Shown here: one piece after another, positions 6,227-24,093 of the stretch
How the letters are laid out: every line of letters starts with the position of its first letter
How positions within the stretch are numbered: the stretch's first letter is position 1
Source: a virus
Length of the DNA: 37,755 nucleotides
Strand: one strand, 5' to 3'
IMG/VR virus record: IMGVR_UViG_3300030090_004637
Location: 1 to 37,755 of that record
The notes under the pieces: generated by a model
What the model saw: the letters and a program-made list of their open reading frames with translations, nothing else
Databases searched by the model: none
What the model was told of the DNA's origin: nothing
Made by a program: the position numbers and the translations under genes

Positions 6227-8668
6227 ATGAATAATGTAGCTCCTTTACAGGGAATGGCTGAAAACTTAGCGCAACATGGTCGTTATGGCGATTCCATGCT
6301 GGTACACATGAATCCGATTGAGGTTCAGGGTATTGCTTCGTTAATGCCTAACGGTCAGTTACCCCTCAATCCAGTTACCGGACAACCAGAGGCGTTTGCT
6401 TTTCTTGCTCCGTTGCTTGGTGGTTTTTTGGGTAAAGCCCTACTTGCAAACACTCTTGGAAACGCGGCCTTGGCGAGTGCGCTTGGTTCTGGTGTATTGA
6501 CAGCAGCCGTTGAAAAGGATTTAGGCAAAGGATTGGCAGCGGGGTTAATGAGCTTTGCCGGAAGCAAGATTTTAGGCGCTGGTCAGCAGGCTGGTGTTCA
6601 GGAATCGATTCAAGAGGGGCTTGGTCAATCAGGAATTGATGCAGCAAGCCTTCAGTTACAAAATGTAGGAGGGGAACAAGTCTTAAAACATCTTGTAGAA
6701 GACGAGACTGGCAAAACAGTAGCACAACAGCTTACTGAACAACAAATTAATAAATTAGGTGCTGGAGGCGAACAAGGTCTTATTGATCTTATGCAACAGT
6801 CATCGACTCTCCCAGAGGTAGCGGCAGGCACAACAAATCCGTTTGCTGCGGCTGGCGCAGAATTTATGAATCCGAGAACCGCTTTACCTTTTGCCATAGG
6901 TGCTAGTGAGTATGTCAGAAAGGACTTGGATTCAAGTCTTATCGATGAAGAATCAGATGACGACTTGATGCTGGCAGAGCAAGGAATTGACAATGCCATG
7001 CGACAACGAATTTATGATTACGGATTTCCTGCACAGGGGATCGCCCCCAGAGACCCAAGATTTGCTCCTAACCAAATGATGGCAGCGGGTGGGGGATTGG
7101 TTTCTCTAAACCCTGCTCAATATGCGGATAAGAAAAATGGGCTTGCTCGTCTGATGGGAGAACCTGTCAGGATGCAGATTGGGGGGTCGCTCCCTGATCT
7201 CGGTCAATATCAGGGATATAGTCTTCAGCCGAGTGCATCGGAGGCGCAAAGCGGATTAAGAGGAACGCAAGCTATATCGGCTCCACAGATGCAGGCATTG
7301 ACTGCTTCAGGATATAGGGCTGGCTTTGATCCTGAGCTTCAATATTTCAGAACTCCAGATAGATTTGGCAATGATCCTTTCCCCGAAGTGTTTGATCCTC
7401 GAAATCCTAACGCACCTGTCCTTCCGACAAACGCGCAATTAGCTCAAGAATTAGCCGAAGCAGAGGCTTCTGGTGCAGGGGCAGGGACTGCTGACTCTGC
7501 TGCATTATATGGTATGCCAAGCTATGTTTCGCCAGATGGAGCGTATTCTCGATTTCTTGGTGGCACTCTTGGATCAGGAATAGCGGGTGTCCCGACTATG
7601 GGCCAGAATTATGATACTAATCAAGGCATTGCCGCACTTCAGGGCTTGGATTATTCAGATTATCCCAAGCGTAGTGATTTCGGGCCTGCTGATGAAGGGG
7701 GGCATATAGAATATCAGCAGGCACAACAGGAATGGTTTAGAAATAGAATGCCATCCGCAAGGATAGACCAGCCTGTTATGCCTTCTGAAGCAACCTCTCC
7801 TGTTGTTCCTATTCCGCCACCTGCAAGCCCAACATCAAGGGCGGAGCAACTACAATATCAAATAGATATGTTGACGAAAGGAACCAGAAGCCCAAACGCA
7901 GAAGAACAAGCCAGAGCGGATCAATTGCAAGCTGAACTTGATGCAATGAGGCAGGCTTCTCCACTAATGCCTCCGCCAGTTGTCGGTAGGCCGACTGAGC
8001 CACCACCACCAGTAGAACAGCCACCAGTTAGTAATGAAAAATTACAACGCATATTGGCAGACAGGCCAAGACGAGGCGAATATGACAGCCCTTATGATTT
8101 CATTACTGATTTAAGAGATTTCAGGGGCATCAATCCTTTTAACAAAGGCGGTTTAGTCAAAATGCAGGACATGGGGCAGGTTCCTGAAATGCTCATAGAC
8201 CCCGCATTAGAAGACCCTGCAATGGCAGACCCTATGGCTAATATTGATCCAGAAACACAACAACTTCTGGAACAAGCAGCGATGGCTATTTTAGGTCAGG
8301 TTTCACCAGAAGAGGCTGATGCGATTATTCAAGCCTTCATTGAGCGGTTTGGCCCAGAGGTATTCCAACAATTCAGGAATCAGGTTTTAACCGCAGTTGT
8401 ACCGAATGCTCAGACAGAGGGTATGGTCGAGGGTCAGGGCGATGGAATGAGCGATGAAATCATGGGAATGATCGGAGATCAACAGCAGGTAGCTGTTTCG
8501 CCAGGCGAGTACATTGTCCCAGCGGATGTGGTTTCTGGAATAGGTAACGGTAGCAGTGACGCGGGAGCAAATGAGCTTGACAGAATGTTAGCTGATATCA
8601 GGCAAGCACGAACAGGGATGACAGAGCAACCACCTGAAATCGACCCAAGAGGAGCAATGCCAGCATGA
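6227..8668 (+). CDS. Large internal virion/tail protein with hydrophobic glycine-rich segment
   Basis: The 813-residue protein is not assigned to a known enzyme. Residues 20-40 carry Y-G-D-S-M-L-V-H-M and I-E-V-Q-G. About 55-115 is a Gly/Ala/Leu-rich hydrophobic stretch that could insert in or cross a membrane. The middle has G-G-G-L-V-S-L and R-L-M-G-E-P-V-R-M-Q-I-G-G-S-L motifs, and Pro-rich linkers span about 515-610. Near the end is V-A-V-S-P-G-E-Y-I-V-P-A-D-V-V, which I recall from large marine phage virion proteins. A DNA-ejection or internal virion role is plausible, because several large Ala/Gln-rich proteins follow in a row, as in T7-like ejection cores. Confidence 0.7.
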   Translation: MNNVAPLQGMAENLAQHGRYGDSMLVHMNPIEVQGIASLMPNGQLPLNPVTGQPEAFAFLAPLLGGFLGKALLANTLGNAALASALGSGVLTAAVEKDLGKGLAAGLMSFAGSKILGAGQQAGVQESIQEGLGQSGIDAASLQLQNVGGEQVLKHLVEDETGKTVAQQLTEQQINKLGAGGEQGLIDLMQQSSTLPEVAAGTTNPFAAAGAEFMNPRTALPFAIGASEYVRKDLDSSLIDEESDDDLMLAEQGIDNAMRQRIYDYGFPAQGIAPRDPRFAPNQMMAAGGGLVSLNPAQYADKKNGLARLMGEPVRMQIGGSLPDLGQYQGYSLQPSASEAQSGLRGTQAISAPQMQALTASGYRAGFDPELQYFRTPDRFGNDPFPEVFDPRNPNAPVLPTNAQLAQELAEAEASGAGAGTADSAALYGMPSYVSPDGAYSRFLGGTLGSGIAGVPTMGQNYDTNQGIAALQGLDYSDYPKRSDFGPADEGGHIEYQQAQQEWFRNRMPSARIDQPVMPSEATSPVVPIPPPASPTSRAEQLQYQIDMLTKGTRSPNAEEQARADQLQAELDAMRQASPLMPPPVVGRPTEPPPPVEQPPVSNEKLQRILADRPRRGEYDSPYDFITDLRDFRGINPFNKGGLVKMQDMGQVPEMLIDPALEDPAMADPMANIDPETQQLLEQAAMAILGQVSPEEADAIIQAFIERFGPEVFQQFRNQVLTAVVPNAQTEGMVEGQGDGMSDEIMGMIGDQQQVAVSPGEYIVPADVVSGIGNGSSDAGANELDRMLADIRQARTGMTEQPPEIDPRGAMPA

Positions 8669-12228: not shown

Positions 12229-14232
12229 ATGGAAATTACCAGCCAAGAACACGCCAATCAGGTTATAGCAGGCATACCAAACAACGAATATGGCGCTGTA
12301 GGGTCACCAGAGAGAGAGGAGGCGATGAATGCCCTACGAGCTTATAGGGACAGCGTATTACGACCTTCTCCTGTTCCAGAAAATGGCGTTGATGACGTTG
12401 TTGCTGATGTTGAGGTGGCGGCCCCCTCTGTAGCTAGAGGTGCGGGACTCACTGCAAGAGGTCTTGCTCAAGGCGCGGCTGGGCTTGCCGGAATAGTTCA
12501 CGATCCTTTGGCTATGTTAATGAATTATGGCTTGGAAGCGGCTGGAGCGCCAGAAAAGTATAGATTCCACGAGAATTTAAGACAGTTGACTTCTGATCAA
12601 TTAACAGGTCTTGGCCTTCCCTCTCCTGAGACAGGAGCAGAGCGTATTTCTGGCATGATTTCAGAAGGAGTAGGCGGGGGTGGACTGGTTGCAAAATTGG
12701 CTACTTTGCCAACGATAGCTGCAAGATCGCCATATATAGCGAAAATACTCAGCAGTCCTTATGAGGTTTTCGGCGCGGGTGCTGCTGGAGGTGGTTCTCA
12801 GTATGCCGCCGAGAAAGGTGCTGGGCCAGTTGGTCAAGTAATTGCTGGAATTGGTACTGCTATCTCAGCGCCACTCTCAGTTGGAGCAGTGAAAGGCATA
12901 GCAAATACTGCTACTTATTTTACTGACAAGTCAGCAGGAAGACGGGCTGGCAGAAAGCTGGTAGAAGCCACTGATTATCCAGAGCTTGCAATAAAAAATC
13001 TTGAAGATGCAGAAGAGATAGTACCCGGCTCTCAGCCAACCACAGGAGTTGCTTCTGCAAGAGGGGAAATAGACCCTGAAACGGGTCTTATTTATGGGGA
13101 TGCTGGCTTGTTACAAGCAGAGGCGATACTAAGAGCTAATAACCCTAATTTATTTTCTTTGAGGCTTTCCCAGCAAAACGCAGCGCGTAGAGCTTATCTC
13201 CAATCTCAAATTGATGAACTGGGTGATCCAGAAACAATGAGATTGGCTAGAGATGCGGTGACTGCTCCCATGAGAGAGGAGGCTCTAAGACAAGGTAAGG
13301 TAGTTAACATAGAGCCAGTTTTGAGTCGTATAGATGGCATATTGCAAAGCGCGAGGGGAACAAGAGATGCGGTTAAGCAATCATTGCCTGATTATAGAAA
13401 GAGGCTTCAAGAAATCAAGAATCTAGACTCAGCCGATGAAGCCGATAGGCTTTATGAGTTAAGAAAAGACATGTCTGATGATATGAGTGGATCAGCCGAC
13501 TCAGCTAAGTCCGGACGGAGACTTGCAAAAGCCGAAATACAAAATGTAAGGAATGCCCTAGATGATGCTATTGAAGAGGTGTCGCCGGGCTATAAAGCAT
13601 ATCTCGAACAATACCGCCGATTATCGCAGAGGGTGAACCAAGCAGAGAGATTGACCATTATGAGGGACAGAGCACTGGGAAAAAGAGACCCTTTAACTGG
13701 TCAAGAAATGTTCTCTCAGGCAAAATTTAGAACCCTAGTTTTAGGGGAAAAAGGTAAACGAGGAATGTCTAGGGTATTGACTGACGATCAATTAATCGTC
13801 ATGACTAAAATAGCTGATGACCTAGATCGCGCAATGACTATTACCAGTCCTCAAGTAAAGGCTGCTGGCTCTGATACCGCAAGAAATACGGTGGGAAACG
13901 CTCTTGGTACTGTTGTGGGAGATGTCTTAGCTAACAACAGAACTATGCGTTTAGCCGGACAGGTTTTGTCTTGGGTCGGAAAATTAACTAAAGCAAAACA
14001 GAATGAATTAATCATAGAGGCAATGTTAGACCCAAAATTAGCTGCCATGCTTATGAGGGATGCAACAAGAATTGATTCGCTTAGAGCATCAAGAGCTTTA
14101 TGGGATAAGTACGTTTCATTAAACATGGGGGCTATGATTGGGATGGCTGCAAGCGAAGACCCCTTGTTAGTGACAGAAAGACAGGGCTATGAAAATGAAG
14201 TAGCTGATCTTTCAGAAGATGTTCCAGAATAA
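12229..14232 (+). CDS. Large helical virion protein with Ala/Gly hydrophobic segments
   Basis: The 667-residue protein has an N-terminal charged helix. At about residues 65-100 is an Ala/Gly-rich region (A-R-G-L-A-Q-G-A-A-G-L-A-G-I), with further Gly/Ala stretches near 140-230. A long coiled-coil domain with many Arg/Glu/Asp residues spans about 330-480. Such alternation of helices and glycine-rich hydrophobic parts suits internal virion proteins that form a channel during DNA ejection, but no family is recognised. It ends on TAATG shared with the spanin gene. Confidence 0.65.
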   Translation: MEITSQEHANQVIAGIPNNEYGAVGSPEREEAMNALRAYRDSVLRPSPVPENGVDDVVADVEVAAPSVARGAGLTARGLAQGAAGLAGIVHDPLAMLMNYGLEAAGAPEKYRFHENLRQLTSDQLTGLGLPSPETGAERISGMISEGVGGGGLVAKLATLPTIAARSPYIAKILSSPYEVFGAGAAGGGSQYAAEKGAGPVGQVIAGIGTAISAPLSVGAVKGIANTATYFTDKSAGRRAGRKLVEATDYPELAIKNLEDAEEIVPGSQPTTGVASARGEIDPETGLIYGDAGLLQAEAILRANNPNLFSLRLSQQNAARRAYLQSQIDELGDPETMRLARDAVTAPMREEALRQGKVVNIEPVLSRIDGILQSARGTRDAVKQSLPDYRKRLQEIKNLDSADEADRLYELRKDMSDDMSGSADSAKSGRRLAKAEIQNVRNALDDAIEEVSPGYKAYLEQYRRLSQRVNQAERLTIMRDRALGKRDPLTGQEMFSQAKFRTLVLGEKGKRGMSRVLTDDQLIVMTKIADDLDRAMTITSPQVKAAGSDTARNTVGNALGTVVGDVLANNRTMRLAGQVLSWVGKLTKAKQNELIIEAMLDPKLAAMLMRDATRIDSLRASRALWDKYVSLNMGAMIGMAASEDPLLVTERQGYENEVADLSEDVPE

Positions 14233-14651
14233 TGAAACTGAGTCTGCTTCTAGGATTAGCCCTAATCATCACTGCCGCAGGCTCTTACTTCTATATCAAT
14301 ATGCAGAAGGCTCAGATAGAGCGGTTACAGGTAGAGTTACAGACTGCGGTGAACAATCAGGCGGTTCTGGAAGCCACGATTGCTAATCAGAATGCGCAGT
14401 TGCAAGAGCAACTGGAAAATCAAAGAGTTAATCAAGCGCGTATCGCAGAGCTTTCTGAGGCTAATGATGAAGCCCGCCAGGAAGTGACGCAATTACGTAA
14501 CACATTTGCTAGGCATGATTTAAACTCTCTGGCGATTGCACGACCTGGGTTAATTGAAAATGCCGTTAACCGAGGCACAAGGCAGGTGGGTGAAGCCCTC
14601 GCTGCGTTAACAAATCCGAGACAATTCGATGAAGTGGTTTCTGCTGATTAG
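14232..14651 (+). CDS. Rz-like inner-membrane spanin
   Basis: The 139-residue protein has an N-terminal membrane helix (L-L-L-G-L-A-L-I-I-T-A-A-G-S-Y-F, about residues 4-20). A long Gln/Glu/Asn-rich coiled coil follows (about 25-100). The end carries L-A-I-A-R-P-G-L-I-E-N-A-V-N, which is typical of Rz-type i-spanins. It would sit in the inner membrane with the coiled coil in the periplasm and bind the lipoprotein made from the next gene. The next gene starts 23 bases before this stop, in another frame, the usual overlapping i-spanin/o-spanin layout. Confidence 0.8.
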   Translation: MKLSLLLGLALIITAAGSYFYINMQKAQIERLQVELQTAVNNQAVLEATIANQNAQLQEQLENQRVNQARIAELSEANDEARQEVTQLRNTFARHDLNSLAIARPGLIENAVNRGTRQVGEALAALTNPRQFDEVVSAD

Positions 14652-15033
14652 CCTGTTATGGCTGCAAGGATGTTCGACAATGGGCGGTCTGTTTGGGGGA
14701 AGCACTGCTGTTCCTGAAGTCAGGCCCGTTGAGGTGGTTACAATCACCGAGCCTGCACCTATGTATCACCCGCCCCTACCAGAGTCTGTCGTTCCCGCTG
14801 AGGTGGAATGGACGGTTCTGAATCCTTCTGTGATGCGGGAATATATTGAAAACTATGATGAAGGAAATGCGCCAGCTATGGCCTACTACGGATTGAGTTC
14901 TCAGGGCTATGAAAACCTTTCCAATAATTTTGCAGATGTGAGAAGGTATATACGCCAAGTTCTTAATATTATTAAATATTACAGGGATAATGACCCGACT
15001 CGAAAAGATGAGGCTGAAACAACGGAAGAATGA
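14629..15033 (+). CDS. Rz1-like outer-membrane lipoprotein spanin
   Basis: The 134-residue protein begins with a lipoprotein signal, W-F-L-L-I-S-L-L-W-L-Q-G-C, so C15 would be lipid-modified. A Pro-rich segment (E-V-R-P-V-E-V-V-T-I-T-E-P-A-P-M-Y-H-P-P) comes next, then W-T-V-L-N-P-S-V-M, as in o-spanins. At 134 residues it is longer than classical Rz1, and the C-terminal half forms charged helices. Overlap with the Rz-like gene and the lipobox support the call. The pair would fuse inner and outer membranes at lysis, confirming a Gram-negative host. Confidence 0.75.
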   Translation: MKWFLLISLLWLQGCSTMGGLFGGSTAVPEVRPVEVVTITEPAPMYHPPLPESVVPAEVEWTVLNPSVMREYIENYDEGNAPAMAYYGLSSQGYENLSNNFADVRRYIRQVLNIIKYYRDNDPTRKDEAETTEE

Positions 15034-15034
15034 T

Positions 15035-15349
15035 ATGGACAATGAACCAATAAAGAAAAAAATCGACCTTGAGGTAGAAGTAACTCCTAACAACATAGGG
15101 GTAAATCCTTATCAGAAATGGGTTCATCTAGCCAAAACCGTAGACGCATGGCGTATCTTTCCGCGAGTGTTTGTGGGTGTATATATCTATCTGTTATATG
15201 CGGTTGTCATGTGGTTTATGACCATTGATGAGCCTAATTTAGAGCAGGCTGGTTTGGTGTCGGTTGTTGTAGGTGCTATGGCTGCTGTATTTGGAATCTA
15301 TGCCGGAACCTCTGGGCAGTCTAAGAAGTTTAAGGGTGAAGAAGAATGA
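15035..15349 (+). CDS. Two-TM holin-like protein
   Basis: This 104-residue protein has a charged N-terminus (M-D-N-E-P-I-K-K-K-I) and two hydrophobic helices at about 44-62 (V-F-V-G-V-Y-I-Y-L-L-Y-A-V-V) and 71-90 (G-L-V-S-V-V-V-G-A-M-A-A-V-F-G-I-Y). The tail is short and Lys/Glu-rich. I recall the same protein in marine phages beside lysis genes. I chose the ATG at 15035, with GGAAG upstream; an earlier in-frame ATG at 14990 lies within the spanin gene. Holin is the best guess from topology and from the spanin genes just before it. Confidence 0.65.
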   Translation: MDNEPIKKKIDLEVEVTPNNIGVNPYQKWVHLAKTVDAWRIFPRVFVGVYIYLLYAVVMWFMTIDEPNLEQAGLVSVVVGAMAAVFGIYAGTSGQSKKFKGEEE

Positions 15350-15627
15350 ACGATGCCTTTGCCTTGATCGGTGACGTAGGGTTTCCCATTGCTATTGCTT
15401 TGATTGCAGGGTTCTTCATATTTCTGACTATTAAGTACATTCTGGAAAGCGTTATCGGGCAGGTCAACGGCATACATGGGATTGTTCAAGCCCTTGATAA
15501 CAGGGTAAAAACCATGAATCATGATATTGTCAGGCTTGATGCAACGATTTGTAGTGTTCTTGGGATCAGGCCCGATTTGAATAGAATTGCCAGAGCCGAT
15601 GGGAAAGAAGATGCTAGGCGAGACTGA
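15346..15627 (+). CDS. Small membrane protein A (tandem pair)
   Basis: The 93-residue protein has one strong membrane helix at about residues 13-32 (F-P-I-A-I-A-L-I-A-G-F-F-I-F-L). A helical region follows with D-N-R-V-K-T-M-N-H-D-I-V-R-L, then a basic/acidic tail. The next gene product has the same plan (G-F-P-I near the start and D-I-x-R-L after the helix), so the two look like diverged duplicates. Both genes overlap their neighbours. A single helix plus cytoplasmic coiled coil could be holin-like or an accessory of the curli-type block directly downstream. Confidence 0.65.
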   Translation: MNDAFALIGDVGFPIAIALIAGFFIFLTIKYILESVIGQVNGIHGIVQALDNRVKTMNHDIVRLDATICSVLGIRPDLNRIARADGKEDARRD

Positions 15628-15887
15628 TGGAAGGTATAGCGGCAGCGGTCAGCGAGTATGGCTTTCCAATAGTTGCTACGGTGGGTCTGCTCTATATGAT
15701 TCATTTTATATGGAACTTTATAACCAATAATATCAAGACAAAACTGGCAGAGGCTAACGTCACGTTGATCAAACTCATCGATAGATGTCGTATGCTCGAT
15801 AATGACATCATAAGGTTACAGCAGAAGTTGGATACAGTAATTGAGTTACGGGAGCAGAAAGATGAAAAAGTGGTTGATAACGATTAG
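15627..15887 (+). CDS. Small membrane protein B (tandem pair)
   Basis: This is an 86-residue protein with Y-G-F-P-I-V-A-T-V-G-L-L-Y-M-I-H-F-I-W (about residues 11-29) as its membrane helix and a coiled coil afterwards (N-D-I-I-R-L-Q-Q-K-L). It resembles protein A upstream in layout and in short motifs. The ATG overlaps the previous TGA by one base. The csgF-like gene begins 26 bases before this stop, so the two are translated from one message and perhaps coupled. Confidence 0.65.
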   Translation: MEGIAAAVSEYGFPIVATVGLLYMIHFIWNFITNNIKTKLAEANVTLIKLIDRCRMLDNDIIRLQQKLDTVIELREQKDEKVVDND

Positions 15888-16326
15888 TTTATTTGCGACT
15901 CCTGTAGTAGCGAGCGATCTTGTATTTCAATTCAAAAACCCTTCTTTTAATGGCATAGGACAGTCAGCTCATTATCTGACCATTGACGAGCAGGAGCGTA
16001 GCCGCAAACAGTCTCTTCGGGAGGAAGCTGAGGCCAAGGCAGAAGAAGCACTAAGGGCTGAGGAAAACACTACGCTTGCAAAATTTATAAGAAATCTTGA
16101 ATCAAGAATTTTTTCCCAGCTTTCCAGAGATTTAGCAGAATCTTTGTTTAACTCTGAGACAGGCGGTTCAGGCGGCGTTATTGATCTGGAAGGCAATAGC
16201 ATTGCCTTTGTTAATACAGGTACTGAAATCGTTTTGACAGTTACTGATACAGACGGAGCAATTACCGAAATAAGAATCCCTGTGGGAACTTTCGGTATTT
16301 GTAGTACGGACGAGTGCGGTATCTAG
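15862..16326 (+). CDS. csgF: CsgF-like curli assembly factor
   Basis: The 154-residue protein has a signal peptide (M-K-K-W-L-I-T-I-S-L-F-A-T-P-V-V-A, cut before S-D). The mature N-terminus L-V-F-Q-F-K-N-P-S-F matches the CsgF segment that in E. coli plugs into the CsgG pore and forms a second constriction. An Ala/Glu-rich helix follows (about 55-85), then helices and a C-terminal beta part (V-L-T-V-T-D-T-D-G), as in CsgF. It is slightly longer than the E. coli protein, mainly through the helical segment. The ATG at 15862 gives the signal peptide directly; an in-frame ATG 21 bases upstream does not. It overlaps csgG by 13 bases. Confidence 0.88.
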   Translation: MKKWLITISLFATPVVASDLVFQFKNPSFNGIGQSAHYLTIDEQERSRKQSLREEAEAKAEEALRAEENTTLAKFIRNLESRIFSQLSRDLAESLFNSETGGSGGVIDLEGNSIAFVNTGTEIVLTVTDTDGAITEIRIPVGTFGICSTDECGI

Positions 16327-17144
16327 TTTTATGTTTAGCAGTATTAGCACTTTCTGGTTGTGTTAGTGTTGATCCGTACCGATGCGGGACGCTGAGTAAT
16401 TACTGCTCGCCACCACCAGAGGTAAAGCGCCCTACTTTGACAGAACTGGTTAATTTACCCATTCCTCGTCAAAAAGCTGTGGTATCGGTGTATAACTTTC
16501 TTGATCTTACAGGGCAAAGGGCCACGGCGGATAACATGGCGTTATTTTCTACTGCTGTAACGCAGGGGGCTGATTCTTTCCTGATTGACGCACTCATGGC
16601 TGCTGGAAACGGAAAATGGTTTTTAATCGCGGAACGGGGGGAATTAGACTCCCTGACGCGGGAAAGACAACTGATTATATCCACCAGAAGCACTTATGAC
16701 GGCGAGGGTGCAAACCAGTTACAGCCATTGTTGTTCAGCGGATTGATAATGTCAGGTGGTATCATTGGTTACGACACAAACCTCAGAAGTGGCGGTATAG
16801 GCGCTAGGTATCTGGGCATAGGGCTTAACGCACAACATCGCGTAGATGAAGTTACAGTGGCTCTCAGAGTTGTTCTGGTGCAAACCGGACAAATTTTATT
16901 AAATGTAATTACGAGCAAACAAGTATATTCAACGTCAACGGGATTTGATACCTTCAGATTTACGGAAAACGGTACTGAATTAGTTGAGGTTGAAGCTGGC
17001 GTTGCTAGAAATGAAACAGCAACCTATGCCGTCAGGAGTGCCATTGAGCAAGCAGTGCTTGAAATAGTGCATCAGGGCATAGCACAGGACTTGTGGGATT
17101 ACCAGCCACAAACAGAGGAGACCGAAAATGAAAATCTTAATTAA
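16314..17144 (+). CDS. csgG: CsgG-like curli secretion channel lipoprotein
   Basis: CsgG forms a nonameric outer-membrane pore that exports curlin subunits. This 276-residue protein has a lipobox L-A-L-S-G-C (C16). Close CsgG signatures follow: V-V-S-V-Y-N, F-S-T-A-V (78-82), G-I-I-G-Y-D-T-N and G-G-I-G-A-R-Y-L-G-I-G, then L-R-V-V...T-G-Q-I-L and a final D-L-W-D. Length equals E. coli CsgG. The constriction loop differs: F78 matches E. coli F56, but the preceding residue is Leu (Asn55 in E. coli) and the Tyr51 position is not aromatic. GTG is the start, overlapping csgF by 13 bases. No CsgE or CsgC is seen. Confidence 0.92.
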   Translation: MRYLVLCLAVLALSGCVSVDPYRCGTLSNYCSPPPEVKRPTLTELVNLPIPRQKAVVSVYNFLDLTGQRATADNMALFSTAVTQGADSFLIDALMAAGNGKWFLIAERGELDSLTRERQLIISTRSTYDGEGANQLQPLLFSGLIMSGGIIGYDTNLRSGGIGARYLGIGLNAQHRVDEVTVALRVVLVQTGQILLNVITSKQVYSTSTGFDTFRFTENGTELVEVEAGVARNETATYAVRSAIEQAVLEIVHQGIAQDLWDYQPQTEETENENLN

Positions 17145-17841
17145 CTTTTTTGTAGTCTGGGCCTTTTATTTGTTGTTCTTAGCGTTTGCTGTTTCTGCAT
17201 TAGCGGCAAACAATTCTATTTATATTACTCAAAGCGGTGGGTCGTCAGCATTGACGATGAATATAGACCAGATTGGTGGATCAAACGTAATAGGCACTAG
17301 CAATGCAAGAGTTTCCCTTACAGGGACAGGTATGACTGTTGATATCGACCAGATTGGCGACAGTAACGTGATCGCTGCGACAGTCGCGCAGGGCAACTCA
17401 ACCAGCTTCACGTTGTCTTCTACAGGTGATTCCAATACGCAGACGCTGGCACTGGGCGCAACGGGTGATGTCCAGAATACCGACTTCGACTTTGCTGCTA
17501 CCGGGGACTCAAATGTCCTGACCTACACGCAGGGCGATGCAGCGACAGCGACAGCCGCGAACGCCGATTTCGATATTACAGGAACGTCAAATAACCTGGC
17601 TGTGACATGCAACGTGGTCGGATGTGTGAATAACTGGACGGTTGACGGTGATTCTAACGATATAGACACGACCCAAGCCAACAACTCAGATCATTCTATT
17701 ACGGCAAATATCACAGGAAACAGTAACAATATTGACGTAGACCAGACCAGTAACGGCGGTAGCGTAAGCAACGTGCTTGATATCGTTGCGACTACAACCA
17801 GTGGCGTGATTGATGTTGACCAATGCACAAGTGGCTGTTAG
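17128..17841 (+). CDS. Secreted curlin-repeat protein 1
   Basis: The 237-residue protein has a signal peptide ending A-L-A (about residue 26). About eight to nine loose repeats of roughly 20-25 residues follow, centred on I-x-Q-x-G-x-S-N (for example I-D-Q-I-G-G-S-N and I-D-Q-I-G-D-S-N), then T-G-D-S-N and T-G-N-S-N variants. This is the CsgA/CsgB curlin pattern, though later repeats lose the Gln. Two C-x(3-4)-C pairs (C-N-V-V-G-C and a final C-T-S-G-C) are unlike E. coli CsgA. It overlaps csgG by 17 bases and is the likely export substrate. A single 60-base count (17401-17460) gives 55% GC, above neighbours. Confidence 0.8.
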   Translation: MKILINFFVVWAFYLLFLAFAVSALAANNSIYITQSGGSSALTMNIDQIGGSNVIGTSNARVSLTGTGMTVDIDQIGDSNVIAATVAQGNSTSFTLSSTGDSNTQTLALGATGDVQNTDFDFAATGDSNVLTYTQGDAATATAANADFDITGTSNNLAVTCNVVGCVNNWTVDGDSNDIDTTQANNSDHSITANITGNSNNIDVDQTSNGGSVSNVLDIVATTTSGVIDVDQCTSGC

Positions 17842-18905
17842 TTCTTTTTCCACTGGCAGTTAATGCTCAGGTTGGTGAGATAACCGAGCTTCGCGGTATC
17901 GGTGAGGTTGTTCGCCAAGACACCACAGATTCTCTTACAGCAGAATTGGACTTAGACATTGCCAGTTACGATGATGTGCGTACTGGCAACGGAAGGCTCG
18001 CAATATCTTTTCTGGACGACTCCGTTTTAAGGCTCACGGAACACAGCAAGATTGTTATAGATGACTTTGTGTTTGACCCTGATCCTGCTCGTAGCCGTTT
18101 AGCATTGAACATGGCAAGTGGTACAGCAAGATTCCTTACAGGTGCATTAGGCAGGATTAACAAAGAAAATATTGCAATCCGCACACCCACCGCGACTATT
18201 GCGATACGAGGCACAGATTTTACTACTACTGTGGACGAGATAGGCCGTAGCTTGGTTATCCTGCTGCCCAATGAAGACGGGAGTTCCAGTGGTGAGATTA
18301 CTGTAGAAACAGCTACCAGTGTGGTGGTATTAAACCAGCCGTTTCAGGCAACCATGACCACTGTTTCAGAGGCGGCTCCGACACGGCCCGTTGTGTTATC
18401 GAATATGACACTGGGATTCATCGACAACCTGCTTATTGTCAGCCCCCCTGACGAGATTACCGAGGTGGTGGAAGAACAATCAGGCACGGCTTCTAACATC
18501 CTAGATGTGGATTTGCTTGAAGAAACAGAGCTTGATGAGAATGAACTGGACGAGGATGAATTACAGGACGAGATTGGCAGGTTGGACATTGACCTGTTGA
18601 ATGTCGATTTCCTGACTGACTTACTGGACATTATTGAGGTATCGGCAACCGAGAAAAAAGAAGTAGCAGAAATAAGCGGAGTGCAAATCGAGGGTATTCT
18701 GCCTGGTTTCGATCAACAGAATCAGACCTATACGTTTGTTGAAGGGGAAGTGCTGACGGTTTATCGTAGCGTGGAAAATACCTTTGATTTAGAGCTTGAC
18801 AAGGGCAATGCGTACAATATTTCTGTAATGACGGCAGGGAAAAAACTGGACATTATTATTAACGGGGGAGGAGAAAATGCGATTTATATTAATCAGTCTC
18901 CTTAG
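17823..18905 (+). CDS. FecR-domain secreted/periplasmic protein with curlin-like C-terminus
   Basis: The 360-residue protein has a short signal peptide (M-H-K-W-L-L-V-L-F-P-L-A-V-N-A). A FecR domain spans about residues 20-150, including L-D-D-S-V-L-R-L, G-T-A-R-F-L-T-G and the hallmark I-R-T-P-T-A-T-I-A-I-R-G-T-D-F (119-133). Then come a beta region and an acidic run with repeated E-L-D-E (about 230-245). The last residues, A-I-Y-I-N-Q-S-P, look like a curlin strand. It lacks the membrane helix of true FecR sigma regulators. Overlaps of 19 and 29 bases tie it to the two curlin-like genes. It may anchor, nucleate or sense the curlin products; inference. Confidence 0.8.
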   Translation: MHKWLLVLFPLAVNAQVGEITELRGIGEVVRQDTTDSLTAELDLDIASYDDVRTGNGRLAISFLDDSVLRLTEHSKIVIDDFVFDPDPARSRLALNMASGTARFLTGALGRINKENIAIRTPTATIAIRGTDFTTTVDEIGRSLVILLPNEDGSSSGEITVETATSVVVLNQPFQATMTTVSEAAPTRPVVLSNMTLGFIDNLLIVSPPDEITEVVEEQSGTASNILDVDLLEETELDENELDEDELQDEIGRLDIDLLNVDFLTDLLDIIEVSATEKKEVAEISGVQIEGILPGFDQQNQTYTFVEGEVLTVYRSVENTFDLELDKGNAYNISVMTAGKKLDIIINGGGENAIYINQSP

Positions 18906-19662
18906 TTTTCCTTTGTGGGCATCAGATAACTCTGTAGAGATTGACACTAAAGGTTCCAATACCAGTATTTATATAGACCAGATCGGGTCGGGTAATACAG
19001 CGAGAGTTTGGTGTGGTCTCAGTAACGGAACCTATACCACCCATACCTGCTCCAGCGCCACTATTGACATAGATCAGGATGGAACAGGCAATCTTGCCAA
19101 AGCGTATAGTCAATACACAAACCATACCGGGAATGAGTACACTATTAACCAGGATGGCAATGATAATATTGGTTACATAGATGCCGATGAAGACAATAAC
19201 GAAATGACAATCACCCAAACGGGCGATGACTTGGAAGCTGAAGTTTATATGTCAGGCGATGATAATGTTTACACCATTTCTCAATCAGGATCAGGTGAGC
19301 ATTACGCCAAGTTTTATGCGTTTGGTGATGACAGCGCATGGACTGTAACTCAATCAGGATCAGGCGATCACAATGCCTATATCAAGTCTTGTAATAATTG
19401 TAACAATAACGATGCCACGATTACTCAGAGCGGTTCAGGCAATAAAGATGGGGATATCGAGTTTAAGAATAACCCAAGCGACAATTCCACTGTGAATCTA
19501 ACTCAGAGCGGGGATGGCGCTCATGTTTCTAATATTACTGTAGCCCAAGGAAACTATACGGTTAATGCCACGCAAACAGGGGTAAGTGCAAAAGGTTACA
19601 CAGTAACCCTTGATTGCACATCTAATTGCAATAAAACTGTCACAATTAATCAGTTTGATTAG
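18877..19662 (+). CDS. Secreted curlin-repeat protein 2
   Basis: The 261-residue protein has a signal peptide (M-R-F-I-L-I-S-L-L-S-F-P-L-W-A). Eight or more curlin-like repeats follow, with clear I-x-Q-x-G-x-G-N cores: I-D-Q-I-G-S-G-N, I-D-Q-D-G-T-G-N, I-N-Q-D-G-N-D-N, then I-S-Q-S-G-S-G-E and V-T-Q-S-G-S-G-D. The final T-I-N-Q-F-D forms an end strand. Cysteines come in close pairs (C-N-N-C, C-T-S-N-C, and a C...C around residue 45-60), suggesting disulfide-locked loops. The Gln/Asn ladders are more regular than in protein 1, so this may be the major subunit. It overlaps the FecR gene by 29 bases. Confidence 0.82.
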   Translation: MRFILISLLSFPLWASDNSVEIDTKGSNTSIYIDQIGSGNTARVWCGLSNGTYTTHTCSSATIDIDQDGTGNLAKAYSQYTNHTGNEYTINQDGNDNIGYIDADEDNNEMTITQTGDDLEAEVYMSGDDNVYTISQSGSGEHYAKFYAFGDDSAWTVTQSGSGDHNAYIKSCNNCNNNDATITQSGSGNKDGDIEFKNNPSDNSTVNLTQSGDGAHVSNITVAQGNYTVNATQTGVSAKGYTVTLDCTSNCNKTVTINQFD

Positions 19663-19670
19663 GGGTCAAG

Positions 19671-19862
19671 ATGCCAAAGAAAAAAACTAAAACTAAGTCA
19701 AAAGTTAATGAGGCTGGCAATTACACAAAGCCTACCATGAGAAAAAACCTGTTTAACAAGATTAAAGCAGGAACTAAAGGTGGCAAGGCAGGTCAATGGT
19801 CAGCCAGAAAAGCTCAAATGCTTGCTAAACAGTACAAGGCAAAAGGCGGAGGTTACAAATAA
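19671..19862 (+). CDS. Small basic protein 1 (WSARKAQ motif)
   Basis: This 63-residue, very Lys-rich protein ends with G-G-K-A-G-Q-W-S-A-R-K-A-Q-M-L-A-K-Q-Y-K. I recall this motif in small proteins of marine phages and larger viruses without a known role. It starts with ATG eight bases after the curlin 2 stop (GGGGTC upstream as a weak ribosome site). The high positive charge would suit nucleic-acid or membrane binding. It is the first of four consecutive tiny basic proteins. Confidence 0.65.
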   Translation: MPKKKTKTKSKVNEAGNYTKPTMRKNLFNKIKAGTKGGKAGQWSARKAQMLAKQYKAKGGGYK

Positions 19863-20044
19863 TGGGAATGAATGTTAAGCATTACCTGAAAGACGGTAAG
19901 GAATGGAAGGGTTCATATCACAAGATGCCTGATGGTGCATTGCACACCAACAAAACACACACTAAAACGAGCAAGCCTATTTTTCATTACGGCGATTTGA
20001 GCAAGACTGCCAAGAAAAAAGCCAAGAGTCAGTGGGGTAAGTAA
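19862..20044 (+). CDS. Small basic protein 2
   Basis: This 60-residue protein has Y-L-K-D-G-K-E-W-K-G-S-Y-H-K-M-P-D-G-A-L-H-T in its first half and a Lys-rich C-terminal half ending K-K-A-K-S-Q-W-G-K. The H-T-N-K-T-H-T-K part is His/Thr/Lys-rich. I do not know a function. It overlaps the previous stop (TAATG) and the next start (TAATG), consistent with translational coupling. Confidence 0.6.
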   Translation: MGMNVKHYLKDGKEWKGSYHKMPDGALHTNKTHTKTSKPIFHYGDLSKTAKKKAKSQWGK

Positions 20045-20295
20045 TGGCTTTGAAAAAATCTCAAAAGTCCCTCAAAGCCTGGACAAAGCAGAAATGGCGT
20101 ACTAAAAGTGGTAAGCCTTCAGCAAAGACAGGCGAAAGGTACTTACCGAGTGCTGCAATTAAGGCGCTATCTTCTAAAGAATACGCTGCAACCACTCGAA
20201 AGAAACGAGAAGATACTAAGAAGGGCAAAAAAGTCAGTAAACAACCTAAGAAGATAGCCAAAAAAACCCGTAAATACAGAAAGGCTGGGAAGTGA
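20044..20295 (+). CDS. Small basic protein 3
   Basis: The 83-residue protein has about 35% Lys/Arg. It contains L-K-A-W-T-K-Q-K-W-R-T-K-S-G-K-P-S and then G-E-R-Y-L-P-S-A-A-I-K-A-L-S, followed by a Lys tail. I recall this conserved core from other phages as an uncharacterised family. It is likely folded in the middle (P-S-A-A-I-K-A-L) with disordered basic ends. Its ATG overlaps the stop before it. Confidence 0.65.
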   Translation: MALKKSQKSLKAWTKQKWRTKSGKPSAKTGERYLPSAAIKALSSKEYAATTRKKREDTKKGKKVSKQPKKIAKKTRKYRKAGK

Positions 20296-20585
20296 TGCCA
20301 AAGAAAAAAGATCCAAGATTAGCGAGGGCGGGTGTAGCTGGTTTTAACAAACCAAAGCGCACCCCGAATCATCCAAAGAAGTCTCACATCGTTGTGGCAA
20401 AAGAAGGCGATAAGATTAAGACCATTCGGTTTGGGCAACAGGGGGTCAAGACCGCTGGAAAACCAAAAGCTGGAGAGTCAGCCAAGCAGAAAGCTAGACG
20501 AAAATCTTTTAAGGCTCGACACGCAAAAAATATCAAAAAAGGAAAGATGTCTGCGGCTTATTGGGCAAATAAAGTTCGATGGTAG
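20295..20585 (+). CDS. Small basic protein 4
   Basis: The 96-residue protein carries D-P-R-L-A-R-A-G-V-A-G-F-N-K-P-K-R-T-P, then K-I-K-T-I-R-F-G-Q-Q-G-V and a C-terminal F-K-A-R-H-A-K-N-I-K-K-G-K-M-S-A-A-Y-W-A. I recall this combination from small uncharacterised proteins of marine phages. The ATG at 20295 overlaps the previous TGA by one base; a GTG three bases earlier is also possible. Its role is unknown; packaging with DNA is one possibility. Confidence 0.65.
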   Translation: MPKKKDPRLARAGVAGFNKPKRTPNHPKKSHIVVAKEGDKIKTIRFGQQGVKTAGKPKAGESAKQKARRKSFKARHAKNIKKGKMSAAYWANKVRW

Positions 20586-20845
20586 ACAGTTTTAGCACTC
20601 GACACAAAATCGCTCAGGTTATCTGGGAGGATGCGTGGATCGACCCAAAAGATGTAGCAACGAAAGATGCAATGGAGCTTCTTCCTGTTATTCGATCAAC
20701 GGTGGGGTATGTGATATCTACAGAAAATGAAGAGTGTCTGATTTTATCTACTGATATTTACGAGAAACACCCTGATATTATTAACACACCGATGATCATA
20801 CCGTGGTCTGCGATCATTCAGTGGTGGGAGTATGACGTACATTGA
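20579..20845 (+). CDS. Hypothetical acidic/aromatic protein
   Basis: This 88-residue soluble protein contains H-K-I-A-Q-V-I-W-E-D-A-W-I-D near its start and I-P-W-S-A-I-I-Q-W-W near its end. It is rich in Ile, Trp and acidic residues, the reverse of the four basic proteins before it. It overlaps the gene before by seven bases and the cyclase start by four. No domain is recognised; its position only suggests that it is co-translated with the cyclase. A 60-base count inside it (20701-20760) gives 33% GC. Confidence 0.6.
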   Translation: MVDSFSTRHKIAQVIWEDAWIDPKDVATKDAMELLPVIRSTVGYVISTENEECLILSTDIYEKHPDIINTPMIIPWSAIIQWWEYDVH

Positions 20846-22626
20846 AGGTTTTACTTGCTTTGCTGGCTGGATTGTTGCTTCTTCGTGTTGTCGATCCGTG
20901 GCCTGTAGAAACTCTGAGACTCAAGTATTTTGATGCTCTGCTCACAATCAGCGAGCCAGTGCAAAGCCAGAACATATCCCTTTACAATATAGATGAAGAT
21001 GCATTAGCCGAAGGGGGTCAGTGGCCTTGGCCTCGTCAGCAACTTGCAGAGCTTAACCGTTATCTTCTCGATTCAGGGGCAGCAGCAGTCGTTTACTCAG
21101 TCTTGTTTCCTGAAACAGACCGATTTGGGGGTGATGCTGAATTTGCGGAGAGCATGGGGCAATTGCCAACATTTCTCTCAGCCGTAGCCACTACAGACAC
21201 AGATCGACAGGAAGGCTGGCATATCGGCGTAGCCACACTGGGTCAGGTCAATGAAAACGCCATTAACTACCCTGGCATCCTGCCGAATGTGCAGGTATTG
21301 CAGGACTCAGCTATCGGTACGGGCATAGTTAACACGGCCCCAGAGGTCGATGGTCTGGTTAGACGAGTGCCTATGGTGGTCAGGGTTGGTGAGAGCCTGT
21401 ATCCGGCCCTAGGGCTTGATGTTTTGCGTGGACTGGCTGGTGACCCCTCTTACCAAGTCAGAGGCTCTGAGACAGGCATAGAAGCGGTTAGAGTGCCTAA
21501 CTTCGATACCATCAATACCGATTCAGCAGGAAGGGTCTGGGTTGATTGGGGAACCACGTTTGCCCAGCAACCGACAGAAGGTACTATCATCTTTGTCGGT
21601 GTGACTGCGGCTGGTATTACCCCGCTCGTACCTACTCCAAGGGGTCTTATGTTTCCACATGAGATTCAAGCGACCCTGTTCGAGACTTTGTTGGCAGGAA
21701 CCTCGCCTGTTCGCCCAGATTGGGCCTTGGGTGGAGAAGTCTTGCTGATATTAGTCATAGGACTGCTCACAGCCTTCTCTGCAAGCCGTTTGCCTGTGAT
21801 GAGTGTTCCACTAGGCATTGTCGTTGTCGGCGCTCTGACGGCAACAGGATCGGTCTTAGGCTACCTGAGACTTGGTATTCTGGTGGATGCGGCATGGCCT
21901 GTTTTTTGCAGCCTGACCATCGGGTCGGTGGGGGTTGGTCAAAGAATGATCTCTGAATATCGACAGAAGCTCCAGATCAGAGGGATGTTTGGGACGTATG
22001 TCAGCCCCAAGCTGGTGCAACAGCTAATCGATGATCCCAGCCTGATGAAGCTCGGCGGGGATACCAAAATTTTGACCTGCCTTTTTGTAGATATCGTGGG
22101 CTTCACCCCTGTCTCGGAGCGTTTTCAGAGAAGTAATGATCCCCAGGGTCTAGTGACCCTCATCAACAGGCTGCTTTCTGTCCTGACTGATGTGGTGTTG
22201 TCACTAGATGGAACGGTCATCACCTATATGGGGGATTGTATTTTCGCCCTTTGGAACGCACCAGTAGACTGCGATAACCATGAGGAAAGGGCTGTGACCT
22301 GTGCTGCCATGATGCTGGTAGCCTTGGAGAAACTTAACAAGGAGATCGAGGCAGAGGGATTGCCCAGCCTTGGTATAGGCATCGGGATCAATACGGGGCC
22401 AGCGGTGATTGGAAACACCGGGGGTCACAACCGATTCATGTATTCGCCTTTGGGGGATAGCGTGAACGCGGCTGCCCGGTATGAAAGCAGTTCGAGAAAG
22501 TACGAGCAGGATGTCCTCATCGGTGAGACCACCGCCCAAGCAGTACCGGATATGGTCGAGTATCTGGATTCGATAGAAGTAAAAGGAAAATCTGAGAAGC
22601 TAAAGGTATTCACGCTTTCTTCTTAG
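20842..22626 (+). CDS. CHASE2-domain class III adenylate/guanylate cyclase
   Basis: The 594-residue membrane protein would make cAMP or cGMP in response to an extracytoplasmic signal. It has an N-terminal helix (M-K-V-L-L-A-L-L-A-G-L-L-L-L), a CHASE2 sensor (about 20-285), three closely spaced membrane helices (about 297-367) and a class III catalytic domain (about 405-594). The two metal aspartates are D417 (F-V-D-I-V-G-F-T) and D465 (Y-M-G-D). D539 (G-D-S-V-N) sits where adenylate cyclases bind the base, with N542 and R546 as transition-state residues. All key residues are present, so it should be active. TTG start overlaps the previous stop. Single-line GC counts of 50-53% exceed the 33% just upstream, suggesting later acquisition. 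Confidence 0.9.
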   Translation: MKVLLALLAGLLLLRVVDPWPVETLRLKYFDALLTISEPVQSQNISLYNIDEDALAEGGQWPWPRQQLAELNRYLLDSGAAAVVYSVLFPETDRFGGDAEFAESMGQLPTFLSAVATTDTDRQEGWHIGVATLGQVNENAINYPGILPNVQVLQDSAIGTGIVNTAPEVDGLVRRVPMVVRVGESLYPALGLDVLRGLAGDPSYQVRGSETGIEAVRVPNFDTINTDSAGRVWVDWGTTFAQQPTEGTIIFVGVTAAGITPLVPTPRGLMFPHEIQATLFETLLAGTSPVRPDWALGGEVLLILVIGLLTAFSASRLPVMSVPLGIVVVGALTATGSVLGYLRLGILVDAAWPVFCSLTIGSVGVGQRMISEYRQKLQIRGMFGTYVSPKLVQQLIDDPSLMKLGGDTKILTCLFVDIVGFTPVSERFQRSNDPQGLVTLINRLLSVLTDVVLSLDGTVITYMGDCIFALWNAPVDCDNHEERAVTCAAMMLVALEKLNKEIEAEGLPSLGIGIGINTGPAVIGNTGGHNRFMYSPLGDSVNAAARYESSSRKYEQDVLIGETTAQAVPDMVEYLDSIEVKGKSEKLKVFTLSS

Positions 22627-23226: not shown

Positions 23227-24093
23227 ATGGCCAGACGAGACATTCAAAAAGAAATAACAGACGAAATCGTTGCTCTGATAAAAGAGCATGGGCAAGATTG
23301 GACAAAACCATTTGCGGATTTAGCTGGTTCGCCAAAAAACGCAAAGACAGAAAATAAATACAACGGCTTGAACGCTTTATGGCTGGGACTAAAGGGTCAC
23401 ACTTATTGGGCGACTTATAATCAGTGGCAAGCATTAGGCGCTCAAGTCAAAAAGGGATCGAAGGCGACACATATCAGCGTTCCCGTCATCATCAAAGATA
23501 AAGATGATAAAGAAAAAATTGTCGGCAAATATTTCAAACCAGCGGCAGTGTTTTCATCGGCGCAAGTGGATGGATGGGAAGAGCCAGCAATTGAAAATCG
23601 TCCTGACCTGACTGAGAGATTGGCGAACATCGATTCGTTCATCGATGCCACTGGAGCGAACATTACTCACAGCGCACAGGGCAGGGCTTACTACAATAGA
23701 TTGAGCGATTCGATTCATCTTCCTCATAGGGAAAATTTTTCGGCAACTGAATTTTCTTCTGCTACGCAGACCTACTACGGAACTGCCTTACATGAGCTAA
23801 TTCACTGGTCAGGCTCGGAGACCAGACTGAATCGTACTAAAGGCCAGAGTTTTGGAGATCATGATTACGCTTACGAAGAGTTGGTGGCTGAAATTGGAGC
23901 CACGATTGCTTCGGTGGAGTTAGGATTGGAAATAACGGTTCGTGCAGATCACGCGCAATATATTTCTAGCTGGTTGAGCGCCCTTAACGATAATAAAGAT
24001 TTTATCTTCAAGGCTTCTGCTGACGCTCAAAAAGCATTTAACTATCTCCAGTCTTTACAAACTGAATCATCAATAAAGGAAGAGGCAGCTTAG
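23227..24093 (+). CDS. ardC: ArdC-like antirestriction protein with zincin metallopeptidase domain
   Basis: The 288-residue protein has an N-terminal ArdC-type ssDNA-binding region (about 1-125). It includes W-T-K-P-F, Y-N-G-L-N-A-L-W-L and T-Y-W-A-T-Y-N-Q-W, then G-S-K-A-T-H-I. A C-terminal zincin domain follows with H189-E-L-I-H193 and a later E-E-L-V-A-E (217-222) that gives the third zinc ligand. ArdC proteins protect entering DNA from restriction; early expression from its own promoter fits that. All expected metal-site residues are present. Length is near that of plasmid ArdC. Ribosome site GTGAGGA lies about ten bases upstream. Confidence 0.85.
   Translation: MARRDIQKEITDEIVALIKEHGQDWTKPFADLAGSPKNAKTENKYNGLNALWLGLKGHTYWATYNQWQALGAQVKKGSKATHISVPVIIKDKDDKEKIVGKYFKPAAVFSSAQVDGWEEPAIENRPDLTERLANIDSFIDATGANITHSAQGRAYYNRLSDSIHLPHRENFSATEFSSATQTYYGTALHELIHWSGSETRLNRTKGQSFGDHDYAYEELVAEIGATIASVELGLEITVRADHAQYISSWLSALNDNKDFIFKASADAQKAFNYLQSLQTESSIKEEAA

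Follow-up and report, generated by a model that had tools for sequence, protein, structure and literature searches.

The marine phage DNA analysed in this work, the IMG/VR record IMGVR_UViG_3300030090_004637 (positions 1–37,755; hereafter, the window), has a guanine-plus-cytosine (GC) content of 45% and encodes on its plus strand a set of proteins related to those of the bacterial curli, or type VIII, secretion system. Between positions 14232 and 22626, the genes overlap or abut throughout, with gaps of at most 8 base pairs, and follow one another in the order spanin pair, h1 (holin-like), h2, h3, csgF, csgG, the gene for curlin-like protein 1, fecR, the gene for curlin-repeat protein 2 (cur2), four genes for basic proteins, a gene for an 88-amino-acid protein and a gene for a CHASE2-cyclase. 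The genes on which the following description centers are these:

15346..15627, plus strand: h2, one N-terminal transmembrane segment and a coiled coil, family phrog_18771; missed in the initial annotation.
15627..15887, plus strand: h3, a second small protein with a transmembrane segment and a coiled coil, paralogue of h2.
15862..16326, plus strand: CsgF-like curli chaperone with a signal peptide (Pfam PF10614, E=3e-14, above the cut-off; phrog_35372, 9e-38).
16314..17144, plus strand: CsgG-like outer-membrane secretion channel lipoprotein (Pfam PF03783, E=5e-48).
17128..17841, plus strand: curlin-like repeat protein 1, candidate export substrate (Pfam curlin repeat, sub-threshold, E=0.018).
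17823..18905, plus strand: periplasmic protein with a FecR domain (Pfam PF04773, E=2e-11), whose C-terminal beta domain ends in AIYINQSP.
18877..19662, plus strand: curlin-repeat protein 2, candidate export substrate (Pfam PF07012, E=2e-16, above the cut-off, six repeats).
20842..22626, plus strand: CHASE2 sensor fused to a class III nucleotide cyclase (Pfam CHASE2, E=3e-35; Guanylate_cyc, E=4e-18).

The initial annotation had described the genes from csgF to the cyclase as a single overlapping run, and each of them was found in its place by means of Pfam and PHROG profiles. The genes that it named were correct, but the start of the block, set at 15862, lies further upstream, at the two small membrane-protein genes spanning 15346–15887. 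Its proposal that the block is under selection and not decaying was supported by the ratios of nonsynonymous to synonymous substitution (dN/dS), which ranged from 0.00 to 0.11 for ten block genes compared with those of a relative, L004, and from 0 to 0.07 for both curlin-like substrates. The synonymous divergence (dS) from L004 was uneven: h2/h3 had values of 0.47–0.95 and the cyclase 0.57, compared with 0.04–0.21 from csgF to cur2. The lower dS of the csgF–cur2 segment suggests that phages probably exchanged this segment at a later date than the regions on either side of it, yielding a recombination mosaic. A possible break between the lysis genes and 15.8 kb was also considered; independent contigs join both parts, and no sign of an assembly break was observed.

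Scans for csgG, fecR and h3 each matched at least 600 stretches, and the locus counts given here are among the matches listed. The gene order of the module recurs in ~95 phage loci, which removes an objection named in the initial annotation as refuting its reading, namely that the genes might occur together only in this contig. When loci were found through csgG and enough downstream DNA was available, FecR followed in 79/79, cur2 in 74/74 and the cyclase in 48/50 cases. Searching from FecR, csgG was present in 65 of 74 loci, and the match in the other nine was near a contig end. The association extends upstream, as at least one of h2/h3 precedes csgG in all 77 loci with enough upstream DNA, and both do so in 67. 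An independent scan with h3 showed that module genes adjoin in 72 of the 73 assessable loci (four further loci lie at contig ends), and ~12 of the h3-found loci have the module on the opposite strand. Because the loci recovered with h3 nearly all carry the module, some of them on the other strand, h2 and h3 are tied to it by more than operon order, and their distribution marks them as core members. The sole assessable h2–h3 pair with no curli genes nearby (L242, 4387–4620) sits between h1 and spanin genes.

The position of h2 and h3 is relevant to an earlier description of the module, according to which csgF is always preceded by one, and sometimes two, histidine kinases (Wittmers 2022, PMC9599517). 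The HATPase_c domain was detected in none of 37 module-bearing records (the window plus 36 others), with all 14 control genomes positive, and h2/h3 displayed no kinase similarity. Given that the position and number (one or two) of h2/h3 fit the published description, and that no kinase domain was found, the reported histidine kinases are probably mislabelled h2/h3 proteins. The similarities that these proteins do present are weak, namely to YvrJ (Pfam E=0.003, below the cut-off) and, in three of six h2/h3-type proteins, to the holin family phrog_4898 (1e-4 to 0.025).

The assignment of the channel is well supported: the CsgG profile matches the solved CsgG at 2e-62, and the lipobox Gly-Cys is invariant. 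Curlin-like protein 1, whose mature N-terminus reads NNSIYITQSG, possesses an invariant GxxN ladder, and its AlphaFold model is a regular beta-solenoid-like chain (predicted local distance difference test score, pLDDT, 85; predicted template modelling score, pTM, 0.77), with no significant fold match to the PDB. The components by which type VIII systems are recognized, that is, CsgG, CsgF and curlin-repeat substrates encoded with the channel, are, thus, all present and common to the bacterial and phage systems, export itself being predicted. The phage module differs from the bacterial one in lacking CsgE and in including FecR, the CHASE2 cyclase and h2/h3.

The FecR fold begins at residue 16, directly after the signal peptide, and the protein contains neither a cytoplasmic anti-sigma part nor a central transmembrane segment. 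Its AlphaFold model (pLDDT 72) consists of a FecR-type domain (residues 16–180) joined by an acidic linker of low confidence to a C-terminal beta domain, which has AIYINQS as its last strand. The first of these domains matches the folds of 4m0h and 6ovk, both anti-sigma FecR-type domains; a comparison of the FecR family with PDB sequences yielded nothing significant. All 77 unique viral FecR proteins of a first set end in [IVL]x[IVL]xQ followed by one to three residues (0.74 would be expected from shuffled tails), as do 73 of the 74 in a second set; these sequences are related and the counts are not of independent events, their identity to the window protein reaching down to ~40% across two phage morphotypes. 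The notion that the tail is a by-product of the overlapping cur2 start was rejected, since the motif is also kept in loci in which the overlap with the following gene is reduced to 1–4 bases or is absent, that gene beginning at the stop codon or beyond it. This terminal IxIxQ strand resembles the mature start of curlin-like protein 1 (NNDIYITQSG), and we hypothesize that it could act in docking or export targeting.

As for the cyclase, the initial annotation had considered all of its catalytic residues intact. This holds for both metal-binding Asp residues and the transition-state Asn/Arg (motifs FVDIVGF, GDC and NAAAR), but not for the adenine-selecting Asp-Lys of the 'DKYxGD' motif, ahead of the second metal site, which is replaced by Ile-Thr at residues 460–461 ('VITYMGD'). 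The Asp-Lys pair is present in nearly all other viral cyclases covering the site, including that of L004, and because several bases differ from L004 there, the change is not a single-base error.

The bacterial relatives of the FecR protein have a CHASE2-cyclase-like gene within 4 kb in 15 of 20 regions examined; csg genes and the FecR C-terminal motif were found in 0/20. In Burkholderia, a LysM-FecR plus CHASE2-kinase operon (BiofilmReg) governs biofilm (PMC5192318), and the CHASE2 cyclase CyaD1 of S. meliloti makes cyclic AMP (PMC5498481). These FecR–CHASE2 pairs, both the Burkholderia BiofilmReg and the alphaproteobacterial neighbours, share with the phage arrangement a gene for a secreted FecR-domain protein beside one for a CHASE2 membrane sensor. 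The phage FecR looks like one member of a bacterial envelope-sensing pair rather than an iron regulator.

One bacterial operon comes closer to the phage module. The metagenome-assembled genome (MAG) of Hyphomonas sp. TMED17 contains csgF-csgG-curlin-fecR-CHASE2 cyclase (L098, 9465–15488) on a 705-kb contig, with ordinary chromosomal genes around it. Like the phages, it presents full-length FecR homology, and its CsgG groups with theirs (100/100); unlike them, it has no h2/h3 and no second curlin, and its FecR ends in SVFILE instead of IxIxQ. Other bacterial operons with a full-length phage-type FecR were not found among 299 genomes of the order and 385 of the class. A bacterial operon resembling that of TMED17 is the probable source of the phage block. 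TMED17 itself could not be upheld as the demonstrated ancestor, as monophyly of the phage CsgG was not rejected (approximately unbiased test, p-AU 0.385), and, judged by its sequence, it may be either donor-like or a recipient of the block. FecR and the cyclase had been stated in the literature to be absent from bacterial curli operons, a statement that is qualified by the TMED17 chromosomal operon, which carries both. Five other contigs assigned to bacteria (L097, L099, L100, L101 and L102, from Saprospirales, Sphingobacteriales, Synechococcus and Rhodobacteraceae MAGs) contain a phage-type module with h2/h3 and a CsgG that groups with phages, and look like phage contigs binned into bacteria.

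Among known phages, Pelagibacter phage HTVC008M and the four Melnitz methylophages were found by tblastn to carry relatives of csgG and of the cyclase. Their curli operons have an order identical to that of the window, h2 and h3 included; they differ in belonging to T4-like myoviruses of SAR11/OM43, in encoding proteins 26–56% identical to those of the window and in having no spanins detected beside the module. The csgF-csgG operon was reported by Zaragoza-Solas 2020 (PMC7029224), and Buchholz 2022 proposed that it forms a lysis pore (PMC9004378). In podo- and myoviruses, Wittmers 2022 then described a set made up of csgF, csgG, curlin repeats, FecR and adenylate cyclase, reported that the viral module is expressed in ocean metatranscriptomes, and suggested superinfection defence and sibling capture as its functions (PMC9599517). 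The type VIII module of that work (HTVC023P-type podoviruses and pelagimyophages) shares the csgF-csgG-curlin-fecR-curlin-cyclase order with the window, whereas it is described with the histidine kinase(s) before csgF where the window has h2/h3; the window lineage also has a basic-protein insert and a cyclase without Asp-Lys. Since the large terminase subunit of L004, a 57-kb relative, is 53–58% identical to those of HTVC027P, HTVC023P and 023Pt_psg01, the window can be placed, on sequence grounds, near the HTVC023P-type podovirus lineage; with a GC content of 45%, it may have a host other than SAR11. Two viral contigs of jumbo-phage size, L289 (216,820 bp) and L290 (339,794 bp), also carry the module with h2, h3 and FecR. 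The phage record OR851715.1 (1,499 bp, unannotated, named Salmonella phage) is mostly a csgG relative and is possibly host DNA filed as phage.

Therefore, the full set with its substrates, FecR and cyclase, which the initial annotation had regarded as new, already occurs in HTVC008M and Melnitz and was described, all three additions included, in PMC9599517; roles in surface coating, the blocking of rival phages and aggregation are likewise already published as hypotheses. The module is, thus, known in kind. What is new, at the level of sequence, is the core membership of h2/h3, the doubtful kinase label and the invariant FecR tail, as well as the bacterial FecR–CHASE2 pairing, the operon of TMED17 and the changed residues in the cyclase that this phage encodes.

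Three further features complete the run of genes:

14232..15349, plus strand: spanin pair and holin-like membrane protein, a lysis cassette (phrog_739, Rz-like spanin).
19671..20585, plus strand: four small basic proteins (phrog_17747, phrog_14910, phrog_7595), a lineage-specific insert.
20579..20845, plus strand: 88-amino-acid protein with no assigned function, shared with few close relatives (8 viral loci).

The lysis genes were rejected as part of the module core, as the spanins are upstream in the window and downstream in the close relatives L005, L012 and L015; in the myoviruses HTVC008M and Melnitz, no spanins were detected adjoining it. The genes for the four basic proteins and the 88-amino-acid protein are present, as the initial annotation had it, but constitute a lineage-specific insert and not core members: of ~100 loci, only the window, L004 and L009 have all four basic genes at this place. 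Elsewhere in the window are a 2-oxoglutarate-Fe(II) oxygenase (1846–2574, phrog_81), a frequent marine phage auxiliary gene; an ArdC-like anti-restriction protein (23227–24093), a short distance downstream of the module; and two large proteins of 813 (6227–8668) and 667 residues (12229–14232) with no PHROG match, the latter without a homologue in the module-adjoining part of L004.

The gene set, its order, the purifying selection and the co-inheritance of h2/h3 are read from the sequences, and from them we infer the function. In our opinion, the block is probably a secretion module of the curli type (type VIII), carried by the phage, which remodels the surface of the infected cell, with FecR–CHASE2 as an envelope sensor. 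Briefly, CsgG would form a channel in the outer membrane late in infection, extended by CsgF, and curlin-like proteins 1 and 2 would enter the periplasm by the Sec pathway, exit through CsgG and assemble into a fibre or coat around the infected cell. FecR would remain periplasmic or sit at the exit of the pore, with curlin or the export path as the possible docking site of its terminal IxIxQ strand, and would report to the CHASE2 domain, so that the cyclase alters the cyclic-nucleotide signal of the host, while h2/h3 would act as dedicated inner-membrane partners. The likeliest benefit would be the remodelled surface of the infected cell, through either a superinfection block or adhesion.

Several observations weigh against this proposal. 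CsgE was found in 0/37 module records, with the E. coli control positive; however, this gate is present in enterics and absent in Alphaproteobacteria (PMC3521004), and because alphaproteobacterial curli systems also lack it, its absence is normal for such systems and compatible with type VIII membership. The profile of bacterial curlin repeats does not support the FecR tail as a true curlin repeat, and the alignment of this tail with curlin-like protein 1 by hhalign paired the expected strands, but weakly (P=0.005). In addition, the output of the window cyclase may be altered or absent in view of its Ile-Thr replacement, and no clumping was seen by Buchholz et al. in Melnitz cultures (PMC9004378).

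According to a published alternative, the pinholin/secretin idea (Buchholz et al. 2022), CsgG–CsgF would be a pore-only device for lysis or release, repurposed to open the outer membrane and time lysis, the curlin-like proteins being incidental. Such a device would fit the spanin and holin-like genes that adjoin the module in many podovirus-type loci, as well as the weak holin-family similarity of h2/h3 (E 1e-4 and 7e-4 for the two best of six proteins). However, the curlin-like substrates occur in nearly all loci, and the low dN/dS of the block, including both substrates, argues against a pore-only role. Furthermore, that paper reasoned from missing curlin genes, yet Melnitz has two annotated curlin-repeat genes, and the placement of the spanins varies among close relatives, on one side of the module or the other, with none detected beside it in HTVC008M and Melnitz. 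We consider this explanation unlikely. A similarly doubtful possibility, proposed in PMC7029224 and PMC9599517, is that adjacent host cells are stuck to one another by the curli fibres, which would bring the progeny into contact with new hosts; it draws on the same export evidence as the secretion module, cannot be separated from a surface coat by sequence and is countered by the lack of clumping in Melnitz. Finally, the published notion of CsgG as an importer of nutrients or iron compounds, in which FecR would be the iron sensor, accords with the name of the FecR domain, the large open pore of an ungated CsgG and the missing CsgE, but is quite improbable given the conserved curlin substrates and the features of FecR (a signal peptide, no cytoplasmic anti-sigma part, and bacterial relatives paired with CHASE2 cyclases), features which lead away from iron regulation.

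A bolder extension of the surface-remodelling secretion module can be put forward only tentatively: an eight-gene trans-envelope unit in which the inner-membrane h2/h3 might cooperate with CsgG/CsgF of the outer membrane, and FecR, via its invariant, curlin-like terminal strand, might sense the state of the fibre or pore and signal to the CHASE2 cyclase. If this were true, the timing of the infection programme would be set by the state of the surface fibre that the phage itself produces.

Phages that provide their hosts with a whole secretion system that these hosts lack are rare, and this module is common in viral contig collections. The parts list has now changed, with h2/h3 in the core, the published histidine kinase in doubt and FecR as the apparent half of an envelope-sensor pair, and this gives specific targets for function tests.

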